Below are positions 1-27,400 of a DNA stretch of 32,337 nucleotides, in pieces. The position numbers were made by a program, and so were the translations under genes. The first letter of the stretch is position 1; every line of letters begins with the position of its first letter. Below the pieces are notes generated by a model. It saw nothing but the letters and a program-made list of their open reading frames with translations, was not told the DNA's origin and searched no databases. The DNA comes from a virus: IMG/VR virus record IMGVR_UViG_3300024346_000297, positions 1 through 32,337 of that record; one strand, 5' to 3'.

Positions 1-507
1 TACGACTTTGATCCAAAGTCAGCGTCACGTGCCTTTGCTACTCCACGTAGCTGGGCATTCGTATCCGAATTGTTGTTCGATGACGAAGAAGATACTGATA
101 CATTGACCGACTTGATATCGGGTGCGGTCGGTGAAGGATTGGCTGTTAAGTTTATGGCACACCGTAAGATTAGCTCAAAGTTGCCCGATCCTACAGACAT
201 CTTAAACGGCAAAGTTAAGAAAATGGACACTAAAGAAATCAGTGCCATGTACTCATTAACTGTGTCTCTGTGCTATGAGCTCAAAGATGCCGCTGATAAA
301 AACGACAAGAAGTTTAACGACAAAGTCAACTACTTCTTCCAGTTTATGATGGATAATTTTGAGACTGAATTGGTTGTGATGGGTACTAAACTTGCACTGA
401 CTCAATACCAGTTGCCATTGGATCCAGATGAGATCAAATGCTTTGATGACTTCCATGCCAAATATGGTAAGTACATTGCGGCGGCTACAGAAAAGCATTC
501 ACGCTAA
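1..507 (+). CDS. MoxR-like AAA+ ATPase, C-terminal part (5' end outside window)
   Basis: The reading frame is open from the first base, so this is the last 168 residues of a longer protein. The stretch SPRSW-like 'TPRSWAFVSELL' followed by 'GAVGEGLAVKFMAHRKI' and 'LPDPTDILNGK' is typical of the C-terminal lid region of MoxR-family AAA+ ATPases found in large T4-like phages. The Walker A and B motifs would lie upstream and cannot be seen. MoxR ATPases usually work as chaperone-like motors with a partner that carries a VWA domain, and exactly such a partner is the next gene, 76 bases downstream on the same strand. A TTG inside the frame at 70 could be called as a start, but the conserved residues before it argue for a longer protein. 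Family assignment is from recognition of the pattern, not from a search. Confidence 0.72.
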   Translation, partial: YDFDPKSASRAFATPRSWAFVSELLFDDEEDTDTLTDLISGAVGEGLAVKFMAHRKISSKLPDPTDILNGKVKKMDTKEISAMYSLTVSLCYELKDAADKNDKKFNDKVNYFFQFMMDNFETELVVMGTKLALTQYQLPLDPDEIKCFDDFHAKYGKYIAAATEKHSR

Positions 508-523
508 TTTGAGCTTGTGCCAG

Positions 524-552
524 TTGACAGGAGCTTCGGCTCCTGTTATAAT
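524..552 (+). promoter_or_regulatory. consensus sigma-70 promoter (TTGACA-17-TATAAT)
   Basis: TTGACA at 524-529 and TATAAT at 547-552 are both exact matches to the bacterial sigma-70 consensus and are separated by the ideal 17 bases. The site lies between the ATPase gene and the VWA gene and would start transcription about 25 bases before the VWA ATG at 584. It implies that the plus-strand operon can be read by unmodified host RNA polymerase, as early or middle genes usually are. The spacer is almost wholly occupied by a hairpin, listed separately. Confidence 0.75.
525..548 (+). terminator. UUCG-tetraloop hairpin, possible terminator or mRNA-processing/stability element
   Basis: ACAGGAGC (527-534) is followed by the loop TTCG (535-538) and the exact reverse complement GCTCCTGT (539-546). 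A G-T and a T-A pair at the base extend the stem to 10 bp. C(UUCG)G loops are exceptionally stable and are known from intercistronic regions of T4 mRNAs. The sequence after the stem is TATAATATA rather than a run of T, so intrinsic termination may be weak, and a role in 3'-end stability of the ATPase transcript is equally possible. It overlaps both promoter boxes. Confidence 0.65.
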
Positions 553-583
553 ATATACATACAGTAAATATTTAGGAGCAAAA

Positions 584-1759
584 ATGTCAAATTATTTAGA
601 TCCAATTGTTGATAAAATTATCGTAGCACGAGTCGGGTTGCTACTTCGCCATCCGTTTTTTGGCAATATGGCTACTCGTCTTAGAATTGAAGATGCTACA
701 GAATGGTGTGCTACTGCCGCAACAGACGGACGTCACTTATATTACAATAGAGACTTTTTTGCAGACTTGACTACTAAACAGGTTGAGTTTGTTGTTGCAC
801 ACGAAATTCTACATAACGTGTTTGAGCACATGCTACGTGTAGAAGGTCGTGATCGCAAGATATGGAACATTGCCGCTGACTACTCAGTTAACGGTACATT
901 GGTTCGTGATCGTATTGGTGAATCTCCCCCAAAGATTAAAATCTTCCATGACACTGCTCACTACGGAAAAAGTTCAGAACAGATCTATGACGAGATCTAT
1001 GACACAATGGATGACCAAGAGCTCAATGCACTTGGCGAGTTATTAGACGAGCACATTGATTGGGAAAAGGAAGGCAAGGGCCGTCCTGCATACTCAAAAG
1101 AAGAGCTCAAACAAATCCGTGATGAGATCAAAGAAGCTATGATGACTGCGGCGCAGGCGGCGGGTGCGGGAAATGTGCCTGCAGAGATTGGTCGTATGAT
1201 CAAAGAGCTTACTGAGCCAAAGATGAACTGGCGTGAAATTCTGCGCCAGCAAATCCAAAGTACTGTTAAAAACGACTACACCTTTATGCGACCTAACCGC
1301 AAGGCGTGGCATATGAATGCTATTTTGCCAGGTACTAACTACGACGAGACTATTGATATCTGTATTGGTATTGACATGTCCGGATCTATTGGCGATGAAC
1401 AGGCTAAAGACTTTATTAGTGAGATCAAAGGCATTATGGACGAGTATAGAGAGTACAAGATCAAACTGTGGTGCTTTGATACTAAAGTCTACAATGAGCA
1501 AGACTTTGACGGCTACGGCGAAGACATTATGGAATACAAAGTGATGGGTGGTGGCGGTACTGAATTTGATGCCAACTGGGATTATATGAAAGCTAACGAT
1601 ATTCAGCCTAAAAAGTTTATCATGTTTACAGATGGCTACCCTTGGGGATCATGGGGTGATGAAAACTACTGCGATACAGTATTCATCATCCACGGTAATA
1701 CTAGTATTGTTCCTCCATTCGGTGCTCACGCATACTATGAGTCTAGTGATAAAACTTGA
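584..1759 (+). CDS. VWA-domain protein with HExxH metallopeptidase-like region (DUF2201-like)
   Basis: This 391-residue protein has two recognisable parts. Near the N-terminus 'HEILHNVFEH' (73-82) is an HExxH zinc-metallopeptidase signature of the type seen in the DUF2201/VWA-like family. The C-terminal half is a von Willebrand factor A domain with a complete metal-ion-dependent adhesion site: DMSGS (264-268), T326 in a GGGGT stretch, and D350 in FTDG. Such proteins are partners of MoxR-type AAA+ ATPases, and the preceding gene encodes one, so the two probably form a chaperone or remodelling complex. The target is unknown. The start at 584 is chosen because TAGGAGC lies just upstream. A longer frame reaching 428 would run back through the promoter and into the ATPase gene. 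Whether the HExxH site is catalytic is not known. Confidence 0.8.
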   Translation: MSNYLDPIVDKIIVARVGLLLRHPFFGNMATRLRIEDATEWCATAATDGRHLYYNRDFFADLTTKQVEFVVAHEILHNVFEHMLRVEGRDRKIWNIAADYSVNGTLVRDRIGESPPKIKIFHDTAHYGKSSEQIYDEIYDTMDDQELNALGELLDEHIDWEKEGKGRPAYSKEELKQIRDEIKEAMMTAAQAAGAGNVPAEIGRMIKELTEPKMNWREILRQQIQSTVKNDYTFMRPNRKAWHMNAILPGTNYDETIDICIGIDMSGSIGDEQAKDFISEIKGIMDEYREYKIKLWCFDTKVYNEQDFDGYGEDIMEYKVMGGGGTEFDANWDYMKANDIQPKKFIMFTDGYPWGSWGDENYCDTVFIIHGNTSIVPPFGAHAYYESSDKT

Positions 1760-2306
1760 TCCGGACGCATTCAGTGCCGGCCAAATTGAAAGTAAAGTTT
1801 GGGCGGCACGTGAACTAGAAATCATAGTGGCTCAACAGAAAATTGAGCCATTACGTATTGCCATCCTAGGTGGCTGGTATGCACTACTACATTTTATCTT
1901 GCAGACTAGAGAACGTGTCACAATAGAATACTGTAGATCTTACGATGTTGATCCGAGTGTATGTATAGATGCAAATCTTATCAATAACACTTGGGAAATA
2001 AAAGATTGGCAGTTTAGATCGTTTCCCAGAGACGCTAATAAAGCTACATATGATGACAATATTAATCTAGTCATTAATACTTCGACAGAACATTTTTCTA
2101 GTCAAGACTGGTACGATCGTATTCCTAAAGGTACACTATGCTTGTTCCAAGGTAATGATCTAGTTATTGATGATCATGTACAGCGTCCAGAAAATTTGGA
2201 ACATTTTAAATCTCTTTGGCCTCTCAAAGAGTTGTTTAGTGGCTCATTATATTTTGATTTTAAAGATGCACCTTACACTAGACATATGACTATCGGTTAC
2301 AAATAA
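1737..2306 (+). CDS. putative class I SAM-dependent methyltransferase-like protein
   Basis: This protein of 189 residues starts at an ATG inside the end of the VWA gene (23-base overlap, different frame). 'IAILGGWY' (41-48) resembles the glycine-rich SAM-binding motif I, and 'SYDVDPS' (68-74) looks like the acidic motif II of a Rossmann-fold methyltransferase. 'INTSTEHF' (113-120) and the ending 'TRHMTIGYK' match a family I recall from T4-like marine phages with NTSxEH and RFMxIG signatures. The substrate is unknown. The frame is open further upstream, but that part is only the shadow of the VWA gene. The fold assignment is moderately sure, and methyl transfer itself is inferred. Confidence 0.6.
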   Translation: MSLVIKLDPDAFSAGQIESKVWAARELEIIVAQQKIEPLRIAILGGWYALLHFILQTRERVTIEYCRSYDVDPSVCIDANLINNTWEIKDWQFRSFPRDANKATYDDNINLVINTSTEHFSSQDWYDRIPKGTLCLFQGNDLVIDDHVQRPENLEHFKSLWPLKELFSGSLYFDFKDAPYTRHMTIGYK

Positions 2307-2584
2307 TGGCATTAAAAAATGGTAAACCTAATGCTCTAAATGCACTGGATTTAAGAAAAGTCTTTTTTCCAGCACATCATTTTCATTATACCTTATTAGA
2401 AAAATATACACCTATCTATCATAAAACAATAGATTCGTGGATATATCAGAATCTCAATAGTCGCTACTATATTGGTCAAGCAGTTGATCTAGTAGATAAT
2501 ACTATTGTTTATGTTACTAAAATTGGATTTGAGCAGGAAAAAGAACTTAGTTTTTTCAAACTTGCATGTCCACATTTAACCTAA
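2306..2584 (+). CDS. hypothetical protein, 92 aa
   Basis: I do not recognise this protein. Its ATG shares one base with the stop codon of the methyltransferase-like gene, which suggests translational coupling in the same operon. The sequence is rich in aromatic residues (for example 'HHFHYTLLEKYTPIYHK') and in hydrophobic residues, with no signal peptide, membrane helix or metal-binding motif that I can see. It may assist the upstream protein, but only the position suggests this. Confidence 0.6.
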   Translation: MALKNGKPNALNALDLRKVFFPAHHFHYTLLEKYTPIYHKTIDSWIYQNLNSRYYIGQAVDLVDNTIVYVTKIGFEQEKELSFFKLACPHLT

Positions 2585-2627
2585 CAGATAATTAATATAC
2601 ATATATAACTTATACAAGGAGATTATT

Positions 2628-2849
2628 ATGACTGAAGAAACTAAAGTAGAACAACCTGCAGAAGCTGCGCCGCAACAAGAATCCAATGATTTAACAATCA
2701 ACGATCTTAATGCTATGAGAACCATCATTGATATTGCCAGTTCACGCGGTGCGTTTAAACCAAACGAAATGGTAGCAGTTGGACAAACGTACACTAAATT
2801 ATCTGCATTTTTAGACACCGTAGCCAAGCAACCAAAGCAAGGAGCATAA
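2628..2849 (+). CDS. small conserved phage protein, 73 aa
   Basis: A good ribosome binding site (AAGGAGA) precedes the ATG. The N-terminal 25 residues are acidic, rich in E, P, A and Q, and probably disordered. Residues 26 to about 65 ('LTINDLNAMRTIIDIASSRG', then a GAFKPNEM and VGQ-containing helix) resemble a helical domain I recall from small hypothetical proteins of T4-like cyanophages. No function is known. The gap of 43 bases before it is AT-rich with weak -10-like hexamers but no convincing promoter. Confidence 0.7.
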   Translation: MTEETKVEQPAEAAPQQESNDLTINDLNAMRTIIDIASSRGAFKPNEMVAVGQTYTKLSAFLDTVAKQPKQGA

Positions 2850-2850
2850 T

Positions 2851-3504
2851 ATGCAAACCTTAAAACATGTGGGCCGCATTAAGTCAACAGGACGTAGATG
2901 CTTAGTAGTGTTTAGAACCCTACCTGGAGATGCATTTAGTTGTTTGATCATTCAAACAGAAAGCCTCGATCCAAGCCAACATGATTCACTAATTAATCTA
3001 GTTGAATCAAATTCTGCACAATCAGCAAACGAATTTAGTGAAGTATTGGCTAGAGCAGTTTTCAGTGACGGAAGTACTATGCTGCCAAGTCTTCATGCAA
3101 GAGGCTTGTTAACAAAATTTCCAACAGATAAAATTGAAATGGTGCCTAACATGCAAGCTACAATTTTACTGTCAGAATTAAATCAAGTTATTGCACAACA
3201 AGCTGGCGTCAGTGTACAAGACCTTGCTATCCGTCCTTCTGCTAAAGAAAGTGCGCAAATAGAAGAACTAGTAAAAGTAAAAGATATTAGCCCTACTACA
3301 GGTAATACTGACCCGCTAATAGACCAATATGATGCAGGTAAAACTACATCAGCATCAGTAAATGAAGATGGTATTTTAACCGATGATATGTTGGCTAAGA
3401 AATATCGTAGCGATGCAGATCGACTAAGCAAGGAAGCTGCTCAACTCCGTCGTATGGCCGAAGACCTAGTGCCTGCAAAGAAAAAAACCGCAGTTAACGA
3501 GTGA
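2851..3504 (+). CDS. conserved T4-like marine phage protein of unknown function, 217 aa
   Basis: It begins one base after the stop of the 73-aa gene, whose end supplies the AAGGAGC ribosome binding site. Residues 1 to about 125 form a compact domain starting 'MQTLKHVGRIKSTGRRCLVVFRT-like' and continuing through 'LPGDAFSCLIIQTESL'. I recall this pattern from hypothetical proteins of T4-like cyanophages. The C-terminal part ends in a charged stretch with an alanine/leucine/lysine pattern (about 180-210) that could form a coiled coil. It has no enzymatic motif. It overlaps the next gene by four bases. Confidence 0.7.
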   Translation: MQTLKHVGRIKSTGRRCLVVFRTLPGDAFSCLIIQTESLDPSQHDSLINLVESNSAQSANEFSEVLARAVFSDGSTMLPSLHARGLLTKFPTDKIEMVPNMQATILLSELNQVIAQQAGVSVQDLAIRPSAKESAQIEELVKVKDISPTTGNTDPLIDQYDAGKTTSASVNEDGILTDDMLAKKYRSDADRLSKEAAQLRRMAEDLVPAKKKTAVNE

Positions 3505-3821: not shown

Positions 3822-4501
3822 ATGTTAAATTAATTAGTTACAGTCAACCCACACAAGAATTTGCAGACTTAGGTGTTGATAATGCACAAGAACTAATTGC
3901 ATACTGTGCTCGTGTTAGTAATCCTGCTAATCAACTTAACACAGAAACAAGTGAAAAACTAATCAAGTATTTGGTCAAACACCAACATTGGTCGCCACTT
4001 GAAATGGTGTCTGCTTGTATTGAAATTACAACTACTCGTGATATTGCTCGACAAATCCTACGTCATCGTAGTTTTAGTTTCCAAGAGTTTAGTCAGAGAT
4101 ACGCTGATCCTACAAAGGATCTAGACTTTGTAACTCGTGAAGCAAGACTGCAAGATCCAAAGAATCGTCAAAATAGCATTAGTACTGACGACGAACAACT
4201 GCAAGCGGAATGGGAAATGATTCAGCAGGCTGTAATCGGGGCTGCTAAAGAAGCCTACGAGTGGGCTATTGAAAACGGTATTGCTAAAGAACAAGCTCGT
4301 GCTGTATTGCCCGAAGGTCTTACAGAAAGTCGTTTATACATGAATGGCACACTGCGTAGTTGGATTCACTTTATTGAATTACGCAGTGCTAACGGCACAC
4401 AGAAAGAACATCAACTAGTTGCGATTGCTTGTGCAAAAGCAATTACCGAGATTTTTCCAATGGCTGCTGGTCTAGTTACTCAGGACGCATCGGCAACTTA
4501 A
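3818..4501 (+). CDS. thyX: flavin-dependent thymidylate synthase ThyX
   Basis: ThyX makes dTMP from dUMP using methylene-tetrahydrofolate, FAD and NADPH. The diagnostic ThyX motif is present as 'RHRSFSFQEFSQRY' (82-95), matching RHRxxSxxxxSxRY. Also present are the 'QARAVLP' segment (159-165) and 'RSWIHFIELR' (180-189) that shape the active site. The length of 227 residues is normal for the family. The gene is the last of the plus-strand operon and starts in an ATGA overlap. It fits the usual phage strategy of raising dTTP supply during genome replication. Its last 26 bases overlap the end of the convergent minus-strand gene, so there is no terminator between them. Confidence 0.96.
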   Translation: MNVKLISYSQPTQEFADLGVDNAQELIAYCARVSNPANQLNTETSEKLIKYLVKHQHWSPLEMVSACIEITTTRDIARQILRHRSFSFQEFSQRYADPTKDLDFVTREARLQDPKNRQNSISTDDEQLQAEWEMIQQAVIGAAKEAYEWAIENGIAKEQARAVLPEGLTESRLYMNGTLRSWIHFIELRSANGTQKEHQLVAIACAKAITEIFPMAAGLVTQDASAT

Positions 4502-5546
4502 CGTTAAGTTTAAATTGTTCGTACAACCAGGACCAGTCATTAATTTTTGCTAATGCGTCCTGGTTTCCCTTATTCTCCGTACCGTATTGCATACCTAACA
4601 CGGCTCCAGGGATAACGTACTCCCCAAATCTTCTATCTAAACCTTTGGTAGTCCATGCTGTTAATCGATTAGCAGTTTCTTCTTGATCACTTCTTGCAAT
4701 CACATTGCTGGCTAACTTGGCCGCTTCTCTAAATCCACTACGCCAGGCATTCCAAGGACTAGATGCAAATCTATTAACACTTGCTACTTTAGGCACTATA
4801 GTGAGTTTATTGCTGAGACTGGTAGTAATGTCAACTCCGTCTTTTGTTACGTCAAATAACATTTTAGGTAGCAATTTAATCGCACCATTGCCATACTCGA
4901 GATCGTTTATTTCGTTACGACTGTGCCAAATATGTACTAGATCAAATGCATAGTCTTCTACATAATAATCAAAGTCAAATGATTCTAATACTTCATTATC
5001 AGCATCTACTATCCAAAAATAATCACTTGTGGATTTCTTTGCAGCGTCTTTGTGACTCTTGTATATATTTTTCTGGCCAGCAATACGTTGAGCTTGAGGA
5101 AATCTAGAAGATAGTGTAATCCAATTTTCCCAGCTGTTAGGTTCCTTATAAGTTAAAAAGAAAATATCATATAGCGTATCTGCTTTAACAACAAAATCAT
5201 TTATGTATTTTAAATTAACAAAAAATTCTTGATAGTAATCTGTTTTAAATTCTCGAGGAATTAGATAACATTGAAATTTGTCAGCATACTCCTGAAACAA
5301 TTTAAAAATATGTGTATACTCGTTATCCCATTTTTTAGGCTCAAACTTTATCATAGAATCTAAAAATTCATAGTTCGAATCTATTAGCCAGAAAAATTTT
5401 GTGTTAGTTTGTTTAACAGCCAAAGTTGCAGTATACGCTGGAGACCGCGAATACTCTATAAACCTTGCATGAGGAAATTTATCCTTTAAAAGTTCTTGTC
5501 GAGATTTTTCTAATTCACCTCTATTATAAAATACTATATCGTACAT
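4476..5546 (-). CDS. glycosyltransferase-like protein with duplicated domain, 356 aa
   Basis: The protein contains two related halves. Each begins with a 'YDI(V/F)F' strand, continues to a 'FPxA' element and a 'FW(L/I)(I/V)D' strand. The second half has DAD (181-183) in 'WIVDADNE', which fits the DxD metal and nucleotide-sugar site of GT-A glycosyltransferases. The first half has DSN (56-58) at the same place, so it is probably inactive. 'YGNGAIKLLPK' and 'SPWNAWRSGFREAAKL' are shared with the next gene upstream, showing that the two are paralogues. It starts in a one-base overlap with that gene's stop. It is the last gene of the minus-strand cluster. The family is known to me from T4-like marine phages, and the sugar and acceptor are unknown. 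Confidence 0.65.
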   Translation of the reverse strand: MYDIVFYNRGELEKSRQELLKDKFPHARFIEYSRSPAYTATLAVKQTNTKFFWLIDSNYEFLDSMIKFEPKKWDNEYTHIFKLFQEYADKFQCYLIPREFKTDYYQEFFVNLKYINDFVVKADTLYDIFFLTYKEPNSWENWITLSSRFPQAQRIAGQKNIYKSHKDAAKKSTSDYFWIVDADNEVLESFDFDYYVEDYAFDLVHIWHSRNEINDLEYGNGAIKLLPKMLFDVTKDGVDITTSLSNKLTIVPKVASVNRFASSPWNAWRSGFREAAKLASNVIARSDQEETANRLTAWTTKGLDRRFGEYVIPGAVLGMQYGTENKGNQDALAKINDWSWLYEQFKLNVKLPMRPE

Positions 5547-6457
5547 TATTCTTTATCCAGAAATCCACTACCTTTACGATATTGGTTAAGGTGCACTGAT
5601 TTAAAAAATTTACTAGCATCAGCATCTAATGTTGCTATCTCAAGATCGAGTGCGTTTTTTAAACTAACACCATAGGTCTTAATAGAGTCTTCAACAGTCA
5701 TATGCTCTACATCACTGTGCCACAGGCTAGTAAGATAATCAAAATCTCTAACCTGTACGTAGTCCCAATCAGTGCAATTGGTCATATAACATCCGTGGCG
5801 AGCACCAAGAATTGCCCACAGGCCGTTTGTTGAGTCAGCTCCAACATTCAGCCAAACTCTCAAACGATCTAAATTCTTCCAATGAATTTCTTTCTTGAAT
5901 TCTTTATTAGCAGTTCGTACTCCGCGCTCAAGTGACATCTTTACACCTTCACGGAAGCCTGCTCTCCATGCCTGAAACGGACTTGCATTATTATACACAT
6001 CACTAAAACAACTATTCATCTGTATGTACTCAGCATCCCAACAAAAGTCCACCTGGGCATTAGGATCGTCTGTAGGTGCGTTTTCATGCGTTTTCATGTC
6101 TAATACATACTGCTTAGGCCATAACTTTAATCCGCCGTTGCCATACATAAGTCCGTTGACTACATTATAACCTGCCCAGCTAATAACACATTTAGACAAG
6201 TCTTTATGCTCGTCAAAATCAATTTCTTGATTAAGGAAATCTTCACGTACTGTATTGTCACCGTCAACAGTAACAAATCGATCTGTGTCACTTAGGCGGG
6301 CACAGGCTTTGTGTGCTTCATCGCTGCCTTTGACTCCGTGTATACGTTTTGCCCAAGGTACTTTTTTTAGTAAATCTGCATAATTTTTTTCAGCATTTGG
6401 TTCATCATAGCTGAGATAGATGATATCGTAATCTAAAATTTTAACAGTTTGTGTCAT
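5546..6457 (-). CDS. glycosyltransferase-like protein, 303 aa
   Basis: This is a single-domain paralogue of the neighbouring 356-aa protein. 'YDIIYLSYDEPNAEKNY' at the N-terminus, DGD (65-67) in 'VTVDGDNTV', 'YGNGGLKLWPK' and 'SPFQAWRAGFREGVKM' line up with the second half of that protein. DGD is a plausible DxD site for a GT-A-type glycosyltransferase. The gene is coupled to the one before it by an ATGA overlap. The position downstream of fibre genes suggests a part in glycan modification, but donor and acceptor are unknown. An alternative is a non-enzymatic sugar-nucleotide-binding protein. Confidence 0.65.
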   Translation of the reverse strand: MTQTVKILDYDIIYLSYDEPNAEKNYADLLKKVPWAKRIHGVKGSDEAHKACARLSDTDRFVTVDGDNTVREDFLNQEIDFDEHKDLSKCVISWAGYNVVNGLMYGNGGLKLWPKQYVLDMKTHENAPTDDPNAQVDFCWDAEYIQMNSCFSDVYNNASPFQAWRAGFREGVKMSLERGVRTANKEFKKEIHWKNLDRLRVWLNVGADSTNGLWAILGARHGCYMTNCTDWDYVQVRDFDYLTSLWHSDVEHMTVEDSIKTYGVSLKNALDLEIATLDADASKFFKSVHLNQYRKGSGFLDKE

Positions 6458-7071
6458 TTTATTATATAGTATCCTACTGTAGAAAAGAATTGTTTAACAT
6501 ATACTGCAATATTATTAATATCGCCTTCTTTATCAGAATGATAGTATACTATTTCTCTGTCTTTTTTAATTAATTCATTGATTGAGACTTTGATAGTCCT
6601 GTATATAAAATTCATATTACGCTTGTCAATTATATAAATTTCAAGCGTGGTATTAAGATTATATTTTTTTAATATTTCTCGTTGGTCATTGCGTATTTGA
6701 AATCCCCACTTTTTAAATGTAGGATAATTTTCAATAGTAAACATGCTATCCCAGTCAGTAACTACTGGGGCACAGGTTAAGAATACTGCTGCAATATCAT
6801 CTTCATATTTAGAAACAATTCGTGGTGTATTTTGATCAATAAATGTAACTTGAAAATCTTTAGATTGACTTGTGCCGTTTAAAAAATCTTTAACAATGTC
6901 AAAGTCAAATTCTACAAAACAATCATAGTGTAAGCTGGCTTCATTAGTAATACTTAAAATATCCCCTGAGTCTTTTTCGAAGTATACTCGGTAAGGTAAT
7001 ACCACAGTACTCAATGCCAACGATTGCGCTAATAATTCATAAGGAACAATATCTTCTTCTGGATTATACAT
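6454..7071 (-). CDS. hypothetical protein, 205 aa, within the glycosyltransferase cluster
   Basis: I do not recognise a domain. The N-terminal half has a strand-rich look with 'YRVYFEKDSGDILSITNE', and the C-terminal half is lysine and isoleucine rich ('LEIYIIDKRNMNFIYRTIKV'). No signal peptide or membrane segment is evident. It overlaps the upstream glycosyltransferase gene by 8 bases and the downstream gene by 4, so it is made with them and may belong to the same process. I cannot support any function beyond that. Confidence 0.6.
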   Translation of the reverse strand: MYNPEEDIVPYELLAQSLALSTVVLPYRVYFEKDSGDILSITNEASLHYDCFVEFDFDIVKDFLNGTSQSKDFQVTFIDQNTPRIVSKYEDDIAAVFLTCAPVVTDWDSMFTIENYPTFKKWGFQIRNDQREILKKYNLNTTLEIYIIDKRNMNFIYRTIKVSINELIKKDREIVYYHSDKEGDINNIAVYVKQFFSTVGYYIIK

Positions 7072-7888
7072 TTAATTTCTCAATGACATCATTAGTAAGG
7101 AATGCATCTTCCACATAATGAAACACGCCCTGTTGTCTAAAATTATTTAGATATAGTTCTTTAGCATCTGTAAAATTTATTAGTAGCTGACTAAGACAAG
7201 ATTGTGGAATTGGGTCCCATCCTTGCAATGCTGGCTTTAAATGTGTAAATGTAAATGGGCTGTTTTTATTTGTAATGACGTCATCAATTCCCATTAACTT
7301 AGCGGCTATTGCGATTGATACATCTAGACTATAAAAATTCTGCATATTTTTTGGAGCAACTCTATTATACATGTTCTCCCAATTATTTGTTATAAATTCT
7401 AATAATTTAAAAAATTTAAGAGCAGCATCTGATTTTCTAAAATAACACATCCCTGAATATAGATTAGGAAGATCATTTGCCACAAACATTTTTCTATATG
7501 TGGGATTATTAATTACACGACGTTTATAATCAACTACCGACGATGTGAAAAATAAATCTCGATCGTTGACAAATTTCCATACTCTTTCAATATTATCTAA
7601 TACTAACATATCGGTATCAAATATTATAGTTTCATTGTACGGGCTTGCATGATAAAGTTTCCAACGATTCTCAACTTTCCATGTACTATTAGATGCAGCA
7701 TCGTTAAATGGAATTGGGATAATTTGATCAAATGCTGCTTGATATTTTTTAGGAACTGCATCGTTAGTGACAATACTAATATTGTTAATAGTAGGCTGTG
7801 TTGCTCGGATACTTAGAGCCAGAGCATATGCTTGTCTAATATAGTCAACATCGCTGTTTTGAGCAAGTACTAAAAAGCCCTTACTCAT
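7064..7888 (-). CDS. GT8-like glycosyltransferase, 274 aa
   Basis: The order of elements is that of a GT-A nucleotide-diphospho-sugar transferase. It has an N-terminal strand 'GFLVLAQNS' and a segment 'YALALSIRATQPT' like the opening helix of GT8 enzymes. A central 'ETIIFDTDMLVLDNI' follows, with DTD at 91-93 as the metal-binding DxD motif. A later 'NLYSGMCYFRKS' resembles the loop that follows it in such enzymes. It is a paralogue of the preceding 279-aa gene (same start pattern and same DxD setting) and overlaps it by 8 bases, with GGAG ahead of the ATG. The likely role is adding a sugar to a phage or host surface molecule. The acceptor is unknown. Confidence 0.7.
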   Translation of the reverse strand: MSKGFLVLAQNSDVDYIRQAYALALSIRATQPTINNISIVTNDAVPKKYQAAFDQIIPIPFNDAASNSTWKVENRWKLYHASPYNETIIFDTDMLVLDNIERVWKFVNDRDLFFTSSVVDYKRRVINNPTYRKMFVANDLPNLYSGMCYFRKSDAALKFFKLLEFITNNWENMYNRVAPKNMQNFYSLDVSIAIAAKLMGIDDVITNKNSPFTFTHLKPALQGWDPIPQSCLSQLLINFTDAKELYLNNFRQQGVFHYVEDAFLTNDVIEKLNV

Positions 7889-8720
7889 GTACTACTCCGT
7901 CAATGCAGCGAGTAAGACTATATTTGTTCATAACATGTACATCTAGATTACTAGTTTTAACAGCAGTATATTCACCATTATAGTTTTTCTTTTCTACTAG
8001 AAATTTTAATTTTGATTTATCTATATCTAACAATATATCTCTATCTAAAATGTAGTTCATCTTTCCAGGTAACGGGGCTGCAAAATCTTCACCCATCATA
8101 TGTATAGCAATACTAAATGCAAAGTCATTTCTAAATACTGTAGAGTCTATATTATATAACAATCTATAGTAATTCCAATTTAATTTAATATTTTTAATTA
8201 GATCAAAGAAAGCCCAAGTGGCCGTGGTCTTTTTAAAATAAAATGCAGTGGCCCAATAGAATGGAATTGAATGTTGATTTAAATATCTAAAACTACGGTC
8301 GTCGCGCCAGTTAGCTAGATCAAAACTATCGTTATATATTAAAAAATCGTTTTGATTATTCCATATATTTTTTAATGTGGGACTGCTTATAATAAAGTCA
8401 CTGTCAATAACTAGCGTCTCATCATAAGGGGACAAATGACAACAGTCGCCCCTTGATAAGTTTTTCCATGTTAGTGTTTTTGCAGCCAAAGATCCGTCAT
8501 AGAATTTTTTAGTCTGATGCGTTTCTGTCCATATTTCTATAATTTGATCAAATACTGATTCTGCGTCAGGTTGACTTTGTTTAAGCCAATTTGAGCTATC
8601 AGTGATAAGACTCACCGGAACTCCAAGGTATTCTTTTACTCGTTTGGCAGCAAACAAAGATATCTTTGCATAATCAATTTCTGCATTGTTTTGTGCAAAT
8701 ATTAAAACGCCACGTGTCAT
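7881..8720 (-). CDS. GT8-like glycosyltransferase, 279 aa
   Basis: This is a paralogue of the 274-aa gene. It begins 'MTRGVLIFAQNNAEIDYAKI', has DSD (106-108) in 'ETLVIDSDFIISSP' as the expected DxD site, and carries 'SPYDETL' in the same relative position as 'SPYNETI' in its partner. The two have diverged well beyond this core, which suggests different donors or acceptors. It is coupled to the 115-aa gene through an ATGA overlap and has no strong ribosome binding site of its own. Glycosyltransferase activity is inferred from the motif and fold pattern. Confidence 0.7.
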   Translation of the reverse strand: MTRGVLIFAQNNAEIDYAKISLFAAKRVKEYLGVPVSLITDSSNWLKQSQPDAESVFDQIIEIWTETHQTKKFYDGSLAAKTLTWKNLSRGDCCHLSPYDETLVIDSDFIISSPTLKNIWNNQNDFLIYNDSFDLANWRDDRSFRYLNQHSIPFYWATAFYFKKTTATWAFFDLIKNIKLNWNYYRLLYNIDSTVFRNDFAFSIAIHMMGEDFAAPLPGKMNYILDRDILLDIDKSKLKFLVEKKNYNGEYTAVKTSNLDVHVMNKYSLTRCIDGVVHE

Positions 8721-15406: not shown

Positions 15407-15414
15407 TATTTATC
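15407..15414 (-). promoter_or_regulatory. T4-late-promoter-like site (GATAAATA)
   Basis: The minus strand reads GATAAATA, seven of eight matches to the T4 late consensus TATAAATA. It is 20 bases upstream of the 203-aa gene start and overlaps the TAA stop codon of the 4473-aa gene, which lies within the octamer. Spacing and setting match two other candidate sites in the window. Activity is inferred. Confidence 0.5.
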
Positions 15415-18400
15415 GTGGCCAAACAGTTACGTTTTCCTTCAAGAAATTAGCAATCTTATTATTAGATCTTGCTAAACTCTTACCCGGATCGTTCCACAAT
15501 GTTAACTCTTTCTTAACAATAACCACCTCAGTGCCTTCGGCAGCAGCATTTGTTACTGTAATTCTGTTAGTAGTTCCGTCTACACTAAATTCTGCAGAGA
15601 AAGTACTATCACCTTCTGTACTGTACGGATATCCATTAGTTTCTTCAAACAATTCGTACTCCGCTTTCTTCAACTTATATCCGCTGACAAATACATCAAC
15701 TTCATTTATATCTAATGGAGTATAACTTAGATTACCTAAATTTGTTGTAACTCCATTACTAATAACAGTATCGATAATGATCTTGTCAGCGTAAGGAATA
15801 GTTTCAGTTGGGCCAATGTCCTGTACCGTTTGTCCTGCTAGATGTACTGCCGGTGTTCCAGTGCCTAACGTGCCTCTGCGTAACTGTCCAAGTACATTAC
15901 CAACCTTAGTAAAATATTCAATACGCTCACCGTAAATTTCAATAATACCCGGCAGGTTTAATGCTGGATTTGGTAGGGAGAATACAGATCCGTCTACTAC
16001 GGTAATTTGAATATCTGATTGTGTTAGATTACTTGCCAGTACAGATGCTTTTTCTGCACGTAGTCGCTTGTAATGTACTCGATTTAACATGTCCTTAAAC
16101 TGCATAAATCCAAATGTACTACGGACAGTTTGATCAGAGAACAACATTACCTGCACTACGTCAGTAGACTCTAAAGAATCTTTCAATCTAACAGTTACAC
16201 GATCATCGTCAACAGCATAGTCAACACTATGAGTTAGTAGTGTACCATTTTTAATAATCCATACAAAATCGTCCGATACTGATGATCGGCGTAGTGTAAA
16301 ATATCCGCCTAATTTATTTGTAAATTCATAGTAGTCAGTTGTACCAGGCGTCAATGTAGTTGACGGTATCATTATATCAGTAGTTCTATCTATGTCTAAT
16401 AACATGTGATTGTAGAATGAAATTATTTCAATGTCGGTATTTGCCGGATATAATGTAGAAAACTCAATAGTTCCTGCATCAGTTATTGCATAATCAAAAT
16501 CTACATTAATTACCACTGCTAACTTAGCACCAGCTATATACGACGATTGAGAAATCTCAATTGTAATTCCTAATAAATCAACAATATATCCTACGCCGGG
16601 TGTTAGTACATTAGAATCAGCATATACTCGAATATTATTAGAGCTAATTGAATACGTAGCAAATTTATGTGCAGGAATTGTGTAAGATAATACATCATTA
16701 GCCATTGTAAAGTATATCACAGTTGACGGACGTAGTATTTCTTGACCTTTGCGCACAATAACATTTGTTTCGTACGGTTGTAATCTATTTCCGGGTAATA
16801 CTCCAGAATTTAAATTATCTAAATTGTAAACTCTAGCAGTTCCATTAGTAGTGATAAGTTGACTCTTTACTACACTAGCGGTTTGAACAGTAGTTCCAGT
16901 ATCTATCATGTAGTTAATAAGTGAATCTGCTTCAACTGACGAACTAAATCGTATAGCAACTCTGTTAGGACTGTCATATGTATTGTCAGTTCTAAATAGT
17001 TCATACGTAGGTACTATGCCATTAACCAACACGGTAGAAGTTAATTCACCGTCAATCCATGGGGCACGAGTAACATATTCAGTAGTAGTGCCGTCGGCTA
17101 CGAAATGATCCAAATCTAATATATTTTCACTGTTAAAGCCTACACTAATTATGCTAACTACAGAATTGGCCAACGGAGCAGTATCAAATATTACAGAGTT
17201 TGATGCCCAATCAATAGTATATGCGATTTGTTCAATTATTACGTTGCCAACTTTAACAATCACTGCTCGGTCAGTAGCAAAGTATTGACCTATAATAAAT
17301 GTATTGGTAACACCATTGCCTATATAGTTCTTAAATAAGATGTTTGGGGCGCCGCCTTCTGGCCTATGATATACTTTAATGGCCAGTGCATCTGTTATCT
17401 GTCCGGGAACAATTTCTTCCGGAGCATAACTAGTTGCGGGGGTAACAAAATCATCGCCGTCAATGTTAATATCTGCAGGAGCGTATCCAGTTGCTGTTGT
17501 TAGCACTGATCCGTTAAAGGCGCCGCCTTGTAATTGTGTATCGTAATCATTAGGTCTTGGAAGAATGCTTCCATCGCTTGTGCTCTTACGGAATATAACT
17601 TTATCTTTATTATTAATAGTTAAATTAGAATTAGGTAATGTAAATATTTCTGTTGTTCCGTTGCCAACAATAGAGTTCATTATTGCATCAAGATTAGTTT
17701 GTTGCGGGGTATTGTAAGCTGGATCATCAAGTCTAACAGGGGCACTGTATGTGTATCCGTATACAGTGCCGCCTGTGCCCAAAACTACAACCTTGTCTAA
17801 ACTAATTGAAAATGTATTTTCAGAAATTATTTGACGAATTCGATATGTGCCATTATAGTTTCCAGCAGTTACTCCTGCTATAGTAACAAACATATCAGCA
17901 GTAAATCCGTGTACAATGGCGGTGGTAATCCAAACAGATTTATTGCTTAACGCGGACTCAGTTGCTGAAATAATATTAACAGTTGCAGTTGGATTGTATC
18001 TAGAAATATAGACGTTCACTAATTCTCCAACACTAGGAGCATATTGTAAATCATATGTATAGAGACCCGTTGATGCTGTAATTATTCTATCATCATAGAT
18101 TGGGTCAAATCCATCCCACTCATCAGTGAACCACGGAAGGGCGTCCCACCCGCCGGTTGCTCCAAATCCTAATCCTTGTAGTTGTACACCACTATAATCA
18201 ATTCCGTTCATTAGTTGGGCTAGATCTTTACCTAACATTCCACTTGTTGGCTCATAGAAGAAATTAATTCTGTCAGCTGCCGACATATGTTCAAAGTTTT
18301 TCTCATAGGTAATTCTAATTGTCTCTCCCACAGTAGGTGCAGTATCTAATGTTAACAATCCAGAATAACTGGTGTATCCTCTGCTGGTAGATTTTCTAGT

Positions 18401-21400
18401 CGATAACGTATACTCGCCTCGTAAAATGTCAATGCCAGTAACTCCAGGAGTGTTAGGATTTATTCCTGCTGGATATAACTTGATAGAAGCTGATCCTATT
18501 TCTATTCTTGGACTCCACTTTAACGCAAATTGTACACGTGACCCTGTACCAAGTAATGTTTCAGTTTCAGTTTTTTCACTAATATGATAGTCTCTAGTTA
18601 TTCTATCAAATTTAATAGCAATCTTATTTGCTCTAACTACTTCACTTTCAATAATAGCAATTGCGGTTGCTGCGGTTCCTGTCTCAGATAGGCCGCCGTC
18701 TAGTGTGATGATAGGTGCCTTAAGATAGCGTGTGCCGCCTGATATTAAATCAATTCTGTTGACTTTGCCGTTGGAAATATATGCTTTTGCAGATGCGCCG
18801 GTGCCGAATCCACTTTCAATTTTAACTACAGGTTGATTAATATATCCGCTGCCGCCATTAAATATTTCTATAGACTGTATAGTAAATCCTACATGATCAT
18901 ACCAGTGTTTCCACGGATATGCTAATATGCTATTTGAAGATGCATCAATAGTGCCATTGTTGGCAACTGTTACATTCATCGGTGTAACTGTTAAATTTTC
19001 AGTGACTAACGGAATTAAATCAAAGTCAGTTGTTGATTGTCTAGCATAATCTGTTTTGTTATAAGAACTAACATACTCTCTAATTTTTGTTCTGTATGGT
19101 TTTACTTCATTAATATAGTCTTCAAAATTAGACAAATTATCGTTATTATATGTAACTTTTTCTTTTAGTTCGCCTACATTATGAGTTGCTTTTACAAAAC
19201 TAGTCTTAAATGCCCAGTCAATAAAAATTTGCTCGTGCATTACATAACGCAAACTTGAAAAGAATAATTTTAAATATTCAACTCGAAGATTGTCAACGAA
19301 AATTTTATCTTTAATAGAATTGATAATAATTCTTAATTCAGCTGCTGCATAATTATCATACAAAGAAGCATCAAATAGTTGATTGTCAAATCCTACTGAT
19401 GAGTTAATAAATGTATAAATGTTACTTGCAAATTGTATAGTTCCGGATTGTCTGCCAACAACTTTATAATTTTGTGTATAGTCAATTGTTGTTAAATTAT
19501 CGTATTTCTCTAATAGTAGCCAGCCGCCGCTACCGATATTTTTTACCTTAACTATGCTGCCAATGTTTGCAGACAGTGTTACAAGATAATATGTATTGTC
19601 GACTAGATAATCAATTTTTGTAAACTGTGTATACCCAGTAGCATACCAATCAGCATACGTCCAGAATTTTGTTACATCAAATGATTGACTTCTTATACGA
19701 TTCCAACTGCTGTCTCTAGCAGTCCACTCATAGATACTCCATTTATCAAATGAACTAGTATCGCTGGACACCAACACAGCATGAGGTCTTACTATTAGCA
19801 TAGTCTCACTGAAATACCCGCGCCCGGCATTTTGTATAGTAACACTGATAATTCTGCCAGCAGTATCTAATATTGGAAATAGGACTGCCCCAATTCCTGA
19901 ACTTACAATTTTGATAAGTGGAGGATTTTTGTATCCGTATCCTGGATTATCTATCAATATATCAGTTATAATTCCATTTTCAGTTACCGCAGTTAGTGTT
20001 GCCTGAACTAATGATGCAGTTCCAATAAATCGCAACTCAGTGTCTAAGTCAATAACAGTGTCCCACAATCCTGAAACTGTTGACGGGGCAGGATCAGATA
20101 ACATTAGATCACTTATATCAAAGTCATCGACAATTAAATTTTCCATTAAGATAGCATTAACTCGTTCTATGTACTGTTTTAATGCTTCAACTCTATTAAC
20201 AAACATCCCCTGACGAGGTCTAAATTCTATTCCGTAACGATTTTTTACTGGAAGATTAGTATCAGGAATAACCCGATCGTTACTGTCTTTTCCGATTAAA
20301 CTGTCTATCCATTTGTTTTCAATATTTTTAGGAATAGTTGTGTTTGGATGCTCGCTTATAATTTTCCATTGACTGTGCATGTTAATGTCATGATTCTCTA
20401 TTAACCATGTCTGGAAATTTAATACTATATCAGTACCTTCTAATAGATTAGCAAAATTAACTAAACTAAAACTGTTTGTACCAGTAGGGGCAACACAGGT
20501 GTATCCGTATCCTATAGGATCAGATATTAGGCTGGATATTTTGTCTGCTGCTATTGTTCTACCAGCAGCATTAGGTGTTATTTTTTTATTCTTAACCCAG
20601 AAATAATATGTAGGAATTAATCGTTGCCCAACAGTGTCATATTTGTTTTTAACACTATAGACAGTGTCCCCATAAAGGCTTGTACCACTAATACCTGCGG
20701 CCAGTCCTTTAGTAGTATCAGCTAAATTGTTCCATTCGCTTGGTAGATACTTTGTTTCAACCCATTCGTAGATATCAATGCTTGCAGTTTTATATAACTT
20801 GTTCCAAGTAGTTGATCTATATACTACTTCTCCTCCTTGGTTGTCTAAAAACTTAGCACGAGTTAAATTCCACCATAACATACCTACTTGAGCGGTAGTC
20901 CAATTTAATCCGCTATCAACGTTAACTGCACTAGTACCCACAGAGTAAGTTGCTGGGTCAAAATATGTTTTGTATCGAATTTCTTGGTCGGCTATGCCTG
21001 GAATTTTTCCCTGTATCGGATCAACTACGTCAAGGTACGTTACAATAGTATTGGTTATTTTATTGTATAGATATGCCTTTTTAACATTAGAAATATTTGG
21101 TCTCGGTTGCTCGTACACTTTTAAAGTCCATGATTTTAACACCGGTGATTTAACATATGAGAACATTGTACCGGCAGAGCTGTTAAAATTAGGTGCTCCA
21201 ACTAAAATTGTATTATTACCTGTGGCAATTGATGCTCCGTAACTGACAGCAGTTGAAGTGACACTTTCGCCGTATAAAAATTTAGTACCGTAAAGATCAT
21301 AAATATCAACTCGGCTTGCGCTAGTAGCAAATACTACTAACGTAGTATCGTTGTTAGTAAATTGTACCGTTGTGCCAAATTGGTCGCCTATATCTTTAGT

Positions 21401-24400
21401 TAAACTTGTAATTATTTGATACGGTGTGCTGGCACTGGTCGTATTGTATATATAGACGTTACCAATATCACTGCCAATAGCAATATACTGAGAAGATTGG
21501 GCTAACGAAATACTTTTACCAAATCTATCACTTGATGCAATGCCACTAAGCGTAGTTGACAATACATAATTGTTTAGAGTTAACGTATATAGTTTTACTT
21601 GACCTTTATTTGAAACAGCACTCGGTACTGCTGCGGCAAACCTGTTGCCTGTTGCAGACATTGTGATATTTTCAACATCAGTTATTAATAACGAGTTTAC
21701 ATAATTGGCCCAGCTACTATTCCCAGTAGCTTGATAAAAATACACTGCATCAATTGACGACACTGCTAAAATATAAGTAGTTCCATTTTTAGCAAATGCT
21801 AACTTAGTTCCAAATTGTTTGTCAGCTGCCGGAGTTTGACTTATTATATAATTAACAAAAGTATATCTATTGCCTGCTGCTTTATAATACAGGGAAACAT
21901 ACCCTTGATTATTAAATCCGCTTCCATTGACATTAGATGCTGACGAGGCGGCAATTGCTAACCATTTGCCGTCAGCTGATAACGCAGTTTCGGCACCAAA
22001 TTCTTGAGTAGCAATGTCAGCTATAGATGAGTCAATTACCAGTGAATGCGTTTGAATCCATTTATATACTTGCGTACCAATAGTAGTGTTGTATGTTCCT
22101 GAGACATTTTGTCTTTCTAATATAATTACCTGGGCAGCATCTGTTACAATTGCCGTGGTACCGGTTTGAGATACTGTTACTTTTTTACCAAAGTTTAAAC
22201 CAGTAAGATCAGGAATAGTAGTAAGGTCTATATTAAAAGAATTATATATTGTATTATTTTCGTAAACACCCCAGGTGCCGTTGCCAGAATCTTTGGTCCA
22301 TAATAATTCACTAGGTTTAATACTAGTTGGTAAATTATTATTTACATTATCAATTGTATCAAACAAGCAAGGAACAAACTGGTACAATACTATTGCTGGT
22401 GGTTCCGGTAACGGCGACCAGCCTGTTGCTACTGTGCGAATAACAATTTTTCGTGGTGTTGATGCTCCGGGCGTGCTGCCAACTCGCTCTACGCCAACTG
22501 AGTACACCGTATAAAATCCATCTTTTGGAACAGCAACATTTGTGAGACCTACTATATCGCCAGCGACTACATTAGGAATTATATTGCAGGTTAGAACTAT
22601 TTCTCCAATTTTACTAGTAGAGTTATAAAAGTATTCTGCTTTAGTTACAGTGAATGCACTCTGAGTAAATCTATATACATTCCATCGTTCTTTAAAACTG
22701 TTTAATTTATTTTCAAATGCGCACCATACATAGTCACCTTCGGTAAAGATACTAATATCATTTAGTAACGTAACGTCTAATGTGTCAACACTTAAATTTA
22801 CATCTTCATATCTAACAAATCCAGGAGTACGCAGAAACTGTTTAGTGCCTGTTACTGTCCATATATCGTTATTATATCCTAACGGTTTAATGTATATATC
22901 CGACGGACGTTGTCTGTAGACAAAATCAACTACTGCGGAATCAATTGTTGATACTAACTCTACTGGTTGAGGATTTATTTTAAATTGTGATTCATCTAAA
23001 ATAAATTCTGTTTCATCAAACGCGGTAACGGCGCCGTATGATCCTACACGAACTGCCCATTCTTCGTTAAATGTTAAACTTTCTACGCCATCAGCACTTA
23101 GCACGTCAAACAATTTATTAAGAACATTTTGCGTACCTTTTTCAATAATCATACCTTGATAAAATTTATATTGACTCACATCGTCTTTGATAATATTTTC
23201 AAGGTACTGACGTTTCTGGTATCCAATTAAGTGCTGTGCAAATTTCTGTTGCTCTGCATCAAAATTGTCAGTATCGAGGTCGTAAAAATCGGTAAACTGT
23301 TCAGCTCGATAATCCCAGTTAGCTGACATTTTTGCTGTGGGCTTTTCAGCAAGCAAGGACCAGTTAGCAGCATTGAACTTTTGGACACCCGGTAAGGTTG
23401 ATAATGCAGAATAATAAAATTCTTTATACTTTACAATGTCACCTAGTTTATAATCAGTCCATGGTGTCCAGTCATATATTCTAGCTTGGTCAAAAATAAA
23501 TCCTGGAATGTTAAAACCGCCCTTCCAACTTTGACTGAGATATCCGATAACTTTAATACGTTCCTGACGGTATCCGGGTTCAAGATCATAGATAACATCA
23601 TTAAACAATGTTCTGTTATCTAAGATCATTACATGTTCTTTTTGTATCATATAAAATACAGCGCCATATATTCCATGGGTAGTACTTGTAGGAGTTATTG
23701 AAAATTGATTTTCATCGTCATTTCGATAGGTATTAGTAAATTCAGGTTCTAATTTTTGACCATCTACTCTAAATATTTTATATCCATAAAACGGATCTAG
23801 CAGATCATTAACCACACTGTTAGTAGTAGATAAGGTTATTCTATTTGCTGCTGGGCTCACAGAAAGTACTGCGCCGGCGCTCCAATTCTGGGTTGTCCAA
23901 AACATAAATTCTTTTACTGCGGTTTCCCAGTTGGTAATAGCTTTTAATGTAGTGTTAAAGTCATCAAATACAAATCCTTGATTTGACAAATATGCCCCGT
24001 ACCCTTGCAAGAAATCTACTACTTCTTGAACTGTTGCTAACTTTGTTCCGTAGCCCAAAGTTAATGGTAGTGTAGTATCCCATGATTTTCTAATGTTGGC
24101 ATCACGGCCGCCACTAACTGGCAATACTGCAAGTCTAGAAAATAGTGTAGCGTCAAACGTATCTGTAGAGGTATGGACAACATTTACTCGATAATATTGG
24201 TTACCGTAATATACAATTCCACCAGCAACATAACGTTTGCCAGCTGACCATATAATATAACTTTCAGATATTCCGCCAACATTAATAGTTCTAGCAGATT
24301 CTAACCACGGATAGTAATTAAAATACGGTTGCTCGTTATAATATCCGGTGATTTCAAAACCATCAACATGTTTGGTAATAACTACTCCGCTGTATACTAC

Positions 24401-27400
24401 TTTTTTAACTGCTGACGATGTGTTTAAGAAAACAGTGTAATTTTCTTCAGGAATAAAAATACTACCAGTACTGGTTGGACTCTTACTATCTAATAATAAT
24501 TTAAATTTATTCTTTGCGGTAAATCCGCCTAACTTAACTCCAAGATTGTTAGTTAGAGTATCTAAATCAGTCTGATACTGACTAATCAACACGGTTGTAT
24601 CATTGGTCAAATAGTCAACGATGTAGTTGATTAATCCTGATGTTGATACTCGTTGTGTACTTGTTGCAGTTGAGGGCAATACAATATCAGCAAGCCTAAT
24701 ACGTAATCCAGTTTCAGAATAGACTAATTGATTACTAAGATTACGCACCGTACGACTTCTATCTAAACATGTTCCAAGAACTCGATTAGGTTGCATTAGT
24801 AATGCTGCTTGAATGATTGCAAAAGGATAATGTCCCGAACGACGCCATGCAGATTCAACTGGTCCAACATCGCCAAATGTATAATAGCCTTCTGCAGTTG
24901 GTTTGATAGGACCGTTTACAAAATTAGAATTAACTGGGTCTTGCAATTCGCCATTCTCGTCTACAGGCACACCGTGGGCTAAGATAGACTTTGCAAATTT
25001 ATCCAAACGTCTAATAGGTTGTCCAGGTTCTCTAACTATGCCCTGACGGATATCATCCCACATGATTAAATTGTCACTAGTATAAGGGACTGGACCGTAG
25101 ACTTCTTGCCACCACGTTGGAGCTAAACTAAATCCCAAACACTCCCATGGATGTGTATGCGGGCGGTCAGTATCTAACAACCAACGATATATACCTCTCC
25201 AGTAAGCCGGAACAGGGTATCCGTTAGGAGAATAATTACCTCGATAATTAAACGTAAATGGATCTAATCTGTTCCACCATTCAATATTCTGTTTAGTAAA
25301 ATCTTGTCCAACATTGCTGGTCCATTGATAAAAGAATGTGCCTAGGATAGATTCGTATTCATCTTTTGAGTATACTGTTGCTCTATCATACCCCGGAACG
25401 TAATCGTAGATATTAAAAATATCAGGATTATATTGTACTTTGATATTATTGAAAATACGTTTTTCTAATTCCAAGATTAGGTCATCTCGGTAGTCGCCAA
25501 ATGCAATAGTTATACTACCATCGTGTCCTTGAATAACTTCCGTTGGTACGGCGTAGGTAGTGTCTACAAATTTTGAAGGAACAAACTTAGGATATAAACC
25601 TAACTTAGTAGGTGTAGCAGGACAGAATGACCCGTCAGTACTTTCGTACTCTACTGCCATGATAATATCACCATCAGTAAGGTCAGTTAGTATTTCAAAG
25701 AATACATCTGTACCAAATACGTAATCTTGGCCTTCTACTAGTTGCACATCGTTTAGGTAAAGATTAACTGCTTTATTTGATAATACTGTTAAATTAAATA
25801 CCGCATTTAATGGATATATTTTTGTACGAGCATCAAGCACTGTATATTCAAATATACTAGACGCGGCATATCCAAACATATCTGATAGGTAGTAAGGACG
25901 TGATGTGGATTTATCTTTTGCTAATTCTGCTAGTACATGGTCAACGTGTCGTCGTGGATCTGTGTCAATTCCCGAACTAGTTGCTGTTACAATAAATGCT
26001 CTCTTAAATTTACTGTAATCATCTCGTGCTTGTTCTAATGCTTTGAATACATTTGCAGTTGGGGTGCCGAGGTGGTATAGACTTAAATTTACAGGACCAG
26101 AATGTTGAATAAATCGTGTGCCATACGCTGTAACATTTCCAATATCTCGTAAATTACCAGTGCCAGGATATGTACCAACAAATGCACTAATATTGTCAAT
26201 TATAGTATCAACGTGATCAATTACTTGACCTAATGTAAATTCTGATAAGTTATTGTTTAATGGATTGTTTTGTAAATTAACTGGGATTTCATAATATCCG
26301 TTATTATTTTTTTGCTGTGCAGAAAAACATTTCAATGTAACTACGTCAGTCAATGCAACATTAGTCGTTAGCAATATATATTTTCTAACACTGTTTTCAG
26401 TAATAGTATAATTAGACCTAGGCTGTCTCTTTCCGTTGATGTATACTCTAACTTCTAAATCAACTAACTTATCTACATTTGAATATACGTCAACTGGAAA
26501 ATTATTAACTAATCCACTTTCTTTAAATATTCTAATAATGGGCTGTAAATTTGTTATCAGTGTAGTCTTCCATCCATTAACATAATTAAAAGTAGTTAAA
26601 TTTGAAATTGATTTTAAGAATCCAACATCAGTAGGCTGAGTAATAATATCAACTACATTTTTATATTTAAAAGTGTCAGATAACAGATTAAACTCAAAAG
26701 CAATATCACCAATATTGTTTATATTTTGATAGGATAATGGAAATCCTAATTCGGTATCAGTTGTTCCAGTTCCTACTTTATATGAAAATAATTTAGTGCC
26801 TGCAAATGTTGTACCGTCATATACCAATGCGTTTCCGTAGCTGTTGCCGCTGGCGGCAAATACGTCAAATAATGGAGGTTGATTAACCTCCGTTTTTGTC
26901 TGACCAATTTTCCATGTAGTGCCAGTGTACCAATACATTAGTCCCTGATTCACAGTTCCTTGCTCTACTAACAAAGTTTCATTCACTAATGGAATACTGT
27001 CATCAGCTTCGACTAAATTAATTTGTCTACGATATCCAGAAAACACTTCTAACTTGTGTACATCTGAGCCTGTTGCAAAAATATCAGCAACCACTGTTAA
27101 ATTTTTGTCAGTATATAATTTTATTTGAGTAGTATTAAGTACTAACACATAGTAGGCTTTTCTGTTGATCAACCCAGAAATATCTGCATTACCATTATTA
27201 AGATATAATATTTGATTGCCTGTTGTTAGACCGTGACCAATAGAATTAGTTAATGTGTTAGTTTCTATTGTAATAATATTAGTATCCGTATCAACTCCAG
27301 ATAACGCATAAAAACCAATCTGGCGGCCGGGAACCGTAATATTTACAAAATTAATATTAAAGATTCGATCTTTAACTAGAGAGTCAGTATCTGCTGTAAA

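Follow-up and report, generated by a model that had tools for sequence, protein, structure and literature searches.

A conserved phage gene-boundary element in which a consensus sigma-70 promoter and a putative transcript-3′-end hairpin share bases

Organization of the ATPase–VWA junction

The window analyzed here is the whole 32,337-nucleotide stretch of the IMG/VR virus record IMGVR_UViG_3300024346_000297. Near its start, two tandem genes on the plus strand, the 3′ part of an ATPase gene and a VWA-like gene, are separated by a gap whose features are as follows.

1–507, plus strand: upstream ATPase gene, 3′ part (ORF; PHROG 1297, match E value 2e-26), with stop codon TAA at 505–507, 16 nt before the −35 box
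524–529, plus strand: −35 box TTGACA, exact consensus, of which ACA is also hairpin base (TTGACA in 41 of 43 distinct homologous elements)
525–534, plus strand: hairpin 5′ arm, with 527–534 in Watson-Crick pairs and 525–526 extending it as U-A and G.U (folding, covariation)
535–538, plus strand: UUCG tetraloop, closed by C-G (YNMG in 37 of 43 and GNRA in 2 of 43 distinct homologous elements)
539–548, plus strand: hairpin 3′ arm, with 539–546 in Watson-Crick pairs and 547–548 extending it (folding, covariation)
544–552, plus strand: extended −10 element TGT-TATAAT, its TGT within the 3′ arm (TGTTATAAT or TGTTATACT in 38 of 43 distinct homologous elements)
557–561, plus strand: expected start of VWA transcription, about 7 nt past the −10 box, as predicted from promoter geometry
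574–578, plus strand: Shine-Dalgarno sequence AGGAG (sequence reading)
584–1759, plus strand: VWA-like/putative metallopeptidase gene (Pfam DUF2201_N and DUF2201; PHROG 1314)

The protein encoded at 584 to 1759 is called an HNH endonuclease in PHROG and in many records; Pfam places metallopeptidase-like and VWA-like domains in it, and the HNH label on this VWA/DUF2201 protein looks like a spread annotation error. Elsewhere in the window, a single 4473-aa ORF on the minus strand (15410 to 28831) lies beside a 1147-aa baseplate-wedge-like protein (PHROG 10646), which suggests that a large phage encodes a structural protein of great size here. Consecutive minus-strand ORFs at 4476 to 8720, between a thyX-like gene and tail genes, appear glycosyltransferase-like by eye.

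Read directly, positions 524 to 552 have the form TTGACA-17-TATAAT, with TG at 544 to 545 making the −10 box an extended one. The exact consensus boxes and 17-base spacing proposed in the initial annotation are thus borne out as a sigma-70 promoter with a 12/12 match at 17 bp (range, 16 to 18), the only such match in the 20 kb scanned. The 17-nt spacer (530 to 546) reads GGAGCTTCGGCTCCTGT. Positions 527 to 534 pair with 539 to 546 in eight Watson-Crick pairs around the loop UUCG at 535 to 538, which with its C-G closure is a YNMG tetraloop, and G526.U547 and U525-A548 lengthen the stem to 10 pairs in the RNA fold of the 29-mer (−16.5 kcal/mol; z, −6.0; none of 200 shuffles equally good). The same annotation had largely equated the spacer with an 8-bp stem carrying a C(UUCG)G loop; stem and loop are present, but the stem extends beyond the spacer, since it takes ACA from the −35 box and TGT from the extended −10 and so overlaps both.

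About 0.02 promoters matching at 12/12 are expected per window by simulation and about 0.07 from base composition, and, given the promoter, the chance of a spacer stem is about 3e-5 when base composition only is considered; neither the promoter nor the hairpin at 524 to 552 is expected by chance. No second such site was found within the window. A promoter-like site on the minus strand (9116 to 9088, 11/12) has a spacer without a matching hairpin and falls outside the finding. Searches of Rfam gave no match at the gathering score, the tRNA search returned nothing, and a near-identity DNA search of window positions 1 to 3000 against 50,697 phage records gave no match.

Conservation of the element upstream of VWA genes

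Homologous junctions were fetched by means of the VWA protein and not by the motif, in two sets that overlap in contigs and comprise 160 metagenomic loci. When the same gap was compared across these related phages, as the initial annotation had proposed, a promoter-embedded hairpin was found in 157 of the 160, the automatic criterion being a stem of at least eight pairs around a 4-nt loop. An overlap between hairpin and consensus promoter, at first held to be unusual, is in these phages the rule. Locus L418, which falls short of eight pairs, has a seven-pair version with a 6-nt loop, while L268 and L364 are one contig seen twice, where the element lies farther upstream and an ORF is inserted before the VWA gene (L047).

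In the 43 distinct elements all 430 of 430 pair cells are paired, and both sides have changed in five pairs; such compensatory changes on both sides of pairs are those of a structured RNA. Covariation amounts to 0.42, versus 0.11 in shuffled controls and at most 0.14 with slid partners. A tree built from 112 VWA proteins implies a minimum of 37 changes in the arms and 39 in the loops, counts which are not fully independent events, as the VWA sequences share ancestry and may exchange the cassette by recombination. Pairing is retained at each arm change, even if the counts include cassette exchange, and the promoter boxes are near-invariant across the VWA homologues. In L307 and L425 an outer pair has gone from A-U to G-C on both sides, by which the −35 box and the TG motif are lost. 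We regard conservation of the element in the VWA clade, with its hairpin selected at the RNA level, as well supported by the comparison of sequences.

The pairs next to the −35 box (530–531 with 542–543) are always GG/CC or CC/GG and never mixed, and the VWA tree implies at least 18 flips from one form to the other. Repeated exchange of the cassette between phages is one explanation of these flips.

Loop families and strand sense

The YNMG loops of the 43 distinct elements comprise UUCG (10), UACG (7), UGCG (6), UUAG (6), UCCG (2) and, once each, CGCG, CACG, CUCG, CUAG, UCAG and UAAG; the two GNRA loops are GCAA and GAAA, and the remaining four (CGUA, UCUG, UUUG and CUGG) lie outside the stable families. 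YNMG loops have been described as a family of stable tetraloops in RNA (Proctor et al. 2002, as cited in PMC5311481).

IMG/VR was searched with the pattern TTGACA-N4-CTTCGG-N7-TATAAT, a site being counted as folding when its four variable inner pairs were all matched. The CTTCGG motif is present in at least 120 viral stretches, and 116 of 121 sites fold among the matches listed. With the reversed loop CCGAAG, 18 stretches were retrieved and none folds, and among 84,980 prokaryote genomes (bacterial and archaeal, one per species) there were 87 motif matches, again none folding. Since neither the reversed-loop nor the prokaryote matches ever fold, the element is deemed a phage feature that is specific in sense. 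The control with a swapped closing pair gave 21 stretches, among which one marine lineage does fold; as its loop is G(UUCG)C, closure by a C-G pair is not strictly required. This lineage (L335 to L354) consists of 14 near-identical sites at an equivalent promoter position. In the CGAAAG control, the same loop frame being assumed, all four inner pairs matched in 1 of 25 sites.

Covariation, loops of RNA type and the position after the stop codon argue for a hairpin that would act as RNA. Of the two couplings first envisaged, by a cruciform or by an RNA hairpin, the one by a cruciform is disfavored, as the loops follow RNA tetraloop families and keep one strand sense.

The hairpin without the promoter and comparison with terminators

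Within the clade, L362, from a 372-kb contig, has a decayed promoter (ATGACA...CGTTTT) and a stem that is kept, with nine pairs and a GAAA loop, followed by a T5 tract. The ATPase–VWA junction of the more distant cultured jumbo phages GAP32, XbC2, Kaldavass, CBB, RaK2, XaC1, 121Q and Atu_ph07 consists of a hairpin and a U-tract. As in the window, a strong hairpin follows the ATPase stop (GAP32, CBB, XbC2, RaK2, 121Q, Atu_ph07), but it is followed by a U-tract and has no consensus promoter around it, whereas the window's clade has the −10 box there. The junction of Phosso has its hairpin beside a promoter-like site, that of PA5oct has an extended-10-like sequence, and those of Vibrio 2.275.O, SCTP-2 and CRP-7 look different. 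Because L362 and the jumbo-phage junctions keep the hairpin without the fused promoter, the comparison supports a hairpin that is selected in its own right as a 3′-end signal and that, in the clade of the window, would have been joined to a promoter.

As in an intrinsic terminator, a stable GC-rich RNA hairpin (z, −6.0) stands after the gene. A U-tract after the stem was looked for and is absent, the bases being UAUAAUAUAUAC, which is why we did not file the element among intrinsic terminators. The nT value at the window is 1.68, versus 3.6 to 4.9 in the jumbo-phage homologues. A d'Aubenton-type score is −26 for the fused element, +14.5 for GAP32 and about −13 to +6 for the other comparison hairpins, being negative for some comparison terminators too. 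The terminator scan did not include the element among its calls. Efficient intrinsic termination at the element seems doubtful, since the −10 box stands where the U-tract would be.

Recurrence of the element at other gene boundaries

In most independent contexts the upstream ORF is co-directional and has its stop 3 to 45 nt ahead of the −35 box, and the downstream ORF begins some 53 to 90 nt after that box. Given this place after co-directional stops, read-through RNA from the upstream gene would carry the hairpin.

A second set that was not selected on the motif, the regions upstream of gp32 in T4-like phages, has the device in 29 of 48 distinct regions. In the 27 distinct fused gp32 elements 98.1% of cells are paired, covariation is 0.44 versus 0.16, and the loops are of the UUCG type or a GAGAUU-type hexaloop. 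As for the comparison with T4 drawn initially, T4-like phages share the device at gene 32, but among named phages the gene pair itself has its nearest relatives in jumbo phages (Phosso, PA5oct, GAP32-like) rather than in T4. Slightly ahead of the −35 box, many of the gp32 upstream regions (L535 to L596) contain CTAAATA, which is similar to a portion of the T4 late promoter TATAAATA, so that promoters of early and late type may be stacked there together with a hairpin.

Upstream of the clamp-loader gene 44 (gp44) the fused element turns up sporadically (3 of 72) and is not conserved. One gp44 region, L533, has a different fusion, in which a −10-like TAAAAT lies mostly inside the loop of a terminator-like hairpin that is followed by a T run. 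Besides gp32 and gp44, the motif precedes several further unrelated phage genes. In L031 a gap of 4 nt separates the element from the end of a preceding CobS-like ATPase gene (PHROG 249), making this another AAA-ATPase junction that uses it.

Two cultured phages carry the device as well, Enterococcus phage IME-EFm1 directly after its DNA polymerase gene and the T4-like Aeromonas phage Ahp1_CNU-2021 at position 149285. Both resemble the window in that the spacer of a promoter contains a hairpin and immediately follows the stop codon of a co-directional gene; they differ from it in the 6-nt loop of IME-EFm1 and in the poorer −10 box, TATTGT, of Ahp1_CNU-2021. In their records these junctions carry no annotation as such a device. 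BLAST short-query matches in PX29, Vibrio 2.275.O, pEa_SNUABM_13, GuL6, P-RSM6 and EC3a were set aside as ordinary UUCG or UACG terminator-like hairpins without a promoter, and the S-CAM3 match as a promoter without a stem.

Proposed function and alternative explanations

We consider it likely, on the patterns described above, that 524 to 552 is a compact gene-boundary element in which a transcript-3′-end hairpin and a sigma-70 promoter share bases between tandem genes. A polymerase coming from the ATPase gene would transcribe the element, and the RNA would fold into the UUCG hairpin a few bases past the stop codon. The hairpin would then define or protect the 3′ end of the ATPase mRNA, most likely through termination (probably leaky) or pausing, together with a block of 3′-5′ exonucleases; leaky termination, pausing and exonuclease protection would all fit the element. 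As duplex, the same DNA would be a consensus extended −10 promoter, from which a host-type sigma-70 polymerase would start the VWA transcript about 7 nt past the −10 box, so that the new transcript would exclude the hairpin. Promoter activity, the use of a host sigma factor and the effect of the hairpin on the upstream RNA are what we infer here. The arrangement suggests that one message may be closed and the next opened at a single 29-base spot, and the early proposal that one element serves both the ATPase 3′ end and the VWA promoter is strengthened by the covariation, the RNA-tetraloop loops, the position after the stop and the near-invariant boxes.

A narrower sub-case of this explanation, which we hold to be possible though clearly less probable, is a pure RNA 3′-protection or processing hairpin that does not terminate: read-through RNA would be cut downstream and trimmed back to the hairpin, and the promoter overlap would do no more than save space. 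It agrees with a very stable stem with a UUCG-type loop directly after stop codons and with the missing U-tract, but the U-tracts that follow the hairpin in L362 and other jumbo-phage junctions point to termination. Alternatively, the hairpin could stall or release the upstream RNA and the same polymerase could restart from the overlapping promoter, giving a fixed expression ratio. E. coli RNA polymerase stays on the DNA after hairpin termination in vitro and restarts at nearby promoters (PMC6978380; PMC11347151), in one assay after 37 to 55% of termination events (PMC6978380). In the window the expected release (about 553 to 556) and the expected start (about 559), as predicted from the sequence, nearly coincide, and overlap rather than adjacency is strictly kept in the VWA class. 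The overlap could equally be space economy, however, and the weak U-tract limits termination, which leaves such reinitiation a rather unlikely reading. A broader version, in which a widespread phage "relay" class of hairpins would leave the polymerase on the overlapping promoter, so that termination feeds reinitiation and expression levels are tied, has about the same low probability.

The fused hairpin and promoter also has to be weighed against explanations at the level of DNA, both less likely. Cruciform extrusion in supercoiled DNA might turn the promoter off or on: a perfect inverted repeat lies within the promoter, both DNA strands fold (−8.9 and −8.7 kcal/mol), and repression of a promoter by cruciform extrusion is known from E. 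coli (Horwitz and Loeb 1988, as cited in PMC6060812). A cruciform needs no loops that keep to RNA tetraloop families and to one strand sense (CTTCGG, not CCGAAG), and L362 retains the hairpin without a promoter, so we deem this improbable. Operators typically have such a position and a 20-bp dyad, and the inverted repeat, lying between the two promoter boxes, might be the target of a phage repressor or activator that binds as a dimer. This appears more improbable still, as the arms vary freely while remaining paired, unlike a protein site, a DNA palindrome or operator would not need RNA-type loops, and the genomes searched have one copy per record, with a single site in the window. Chance overlap, or shared ancestry without function, could be argued from the VWA set being one homologous locus, but 100% pairing with dozens of compensated changes and the independent recurrence upstream of other genes make it scarcely credible.

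Relation to known systems and significance

Promoters and terminator-type hairpins are normally seen as separate parts, and here many metagenomic phages keep both in 29 bases. The element offers a natural system for studying how one sequence can satisfy promoter and RNA-end constraints at once, and a motif with which uncultured phages can be searched for gene boundaries. It also provides a compact component for building synthetic gene circuits and allows a direct test of the idea that polymerase is recycled from a terminator to a neighboring promoter. No description of such a promoter/hairpin fusion was found in the open-licence literature, most subscription papers being outside the scope of the search.

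The cruciform-regulated E. coli promoter (Horwitz and Loeb 1988, as cited in PMC6060812) shares the inverted repeat, but there a DNA cruciform regulates, whereas here the constraints point to RNA. With the consensus sigma-70 extended −10 promoter the element has TTGACA-17-TATAAT and TG in common, and differs in that its spacer is a covarying hairpin. Phage T4 reportedly has C(UUCG)G intercistronic hairpins, said to have been described by Tuerk and colleagues in 1988; like the one in the window they are stable and lie between tandem phage genes just after the stop codon, whereas here the next gene's promoter supplies the stem through its −35 and extended −10 boxes, and the loops span the YNMG and GNRA families. 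The element would thus combine the workings of an intercistronic C(UUCG)G hairpin of the T4 type with those of a consensus promoter.
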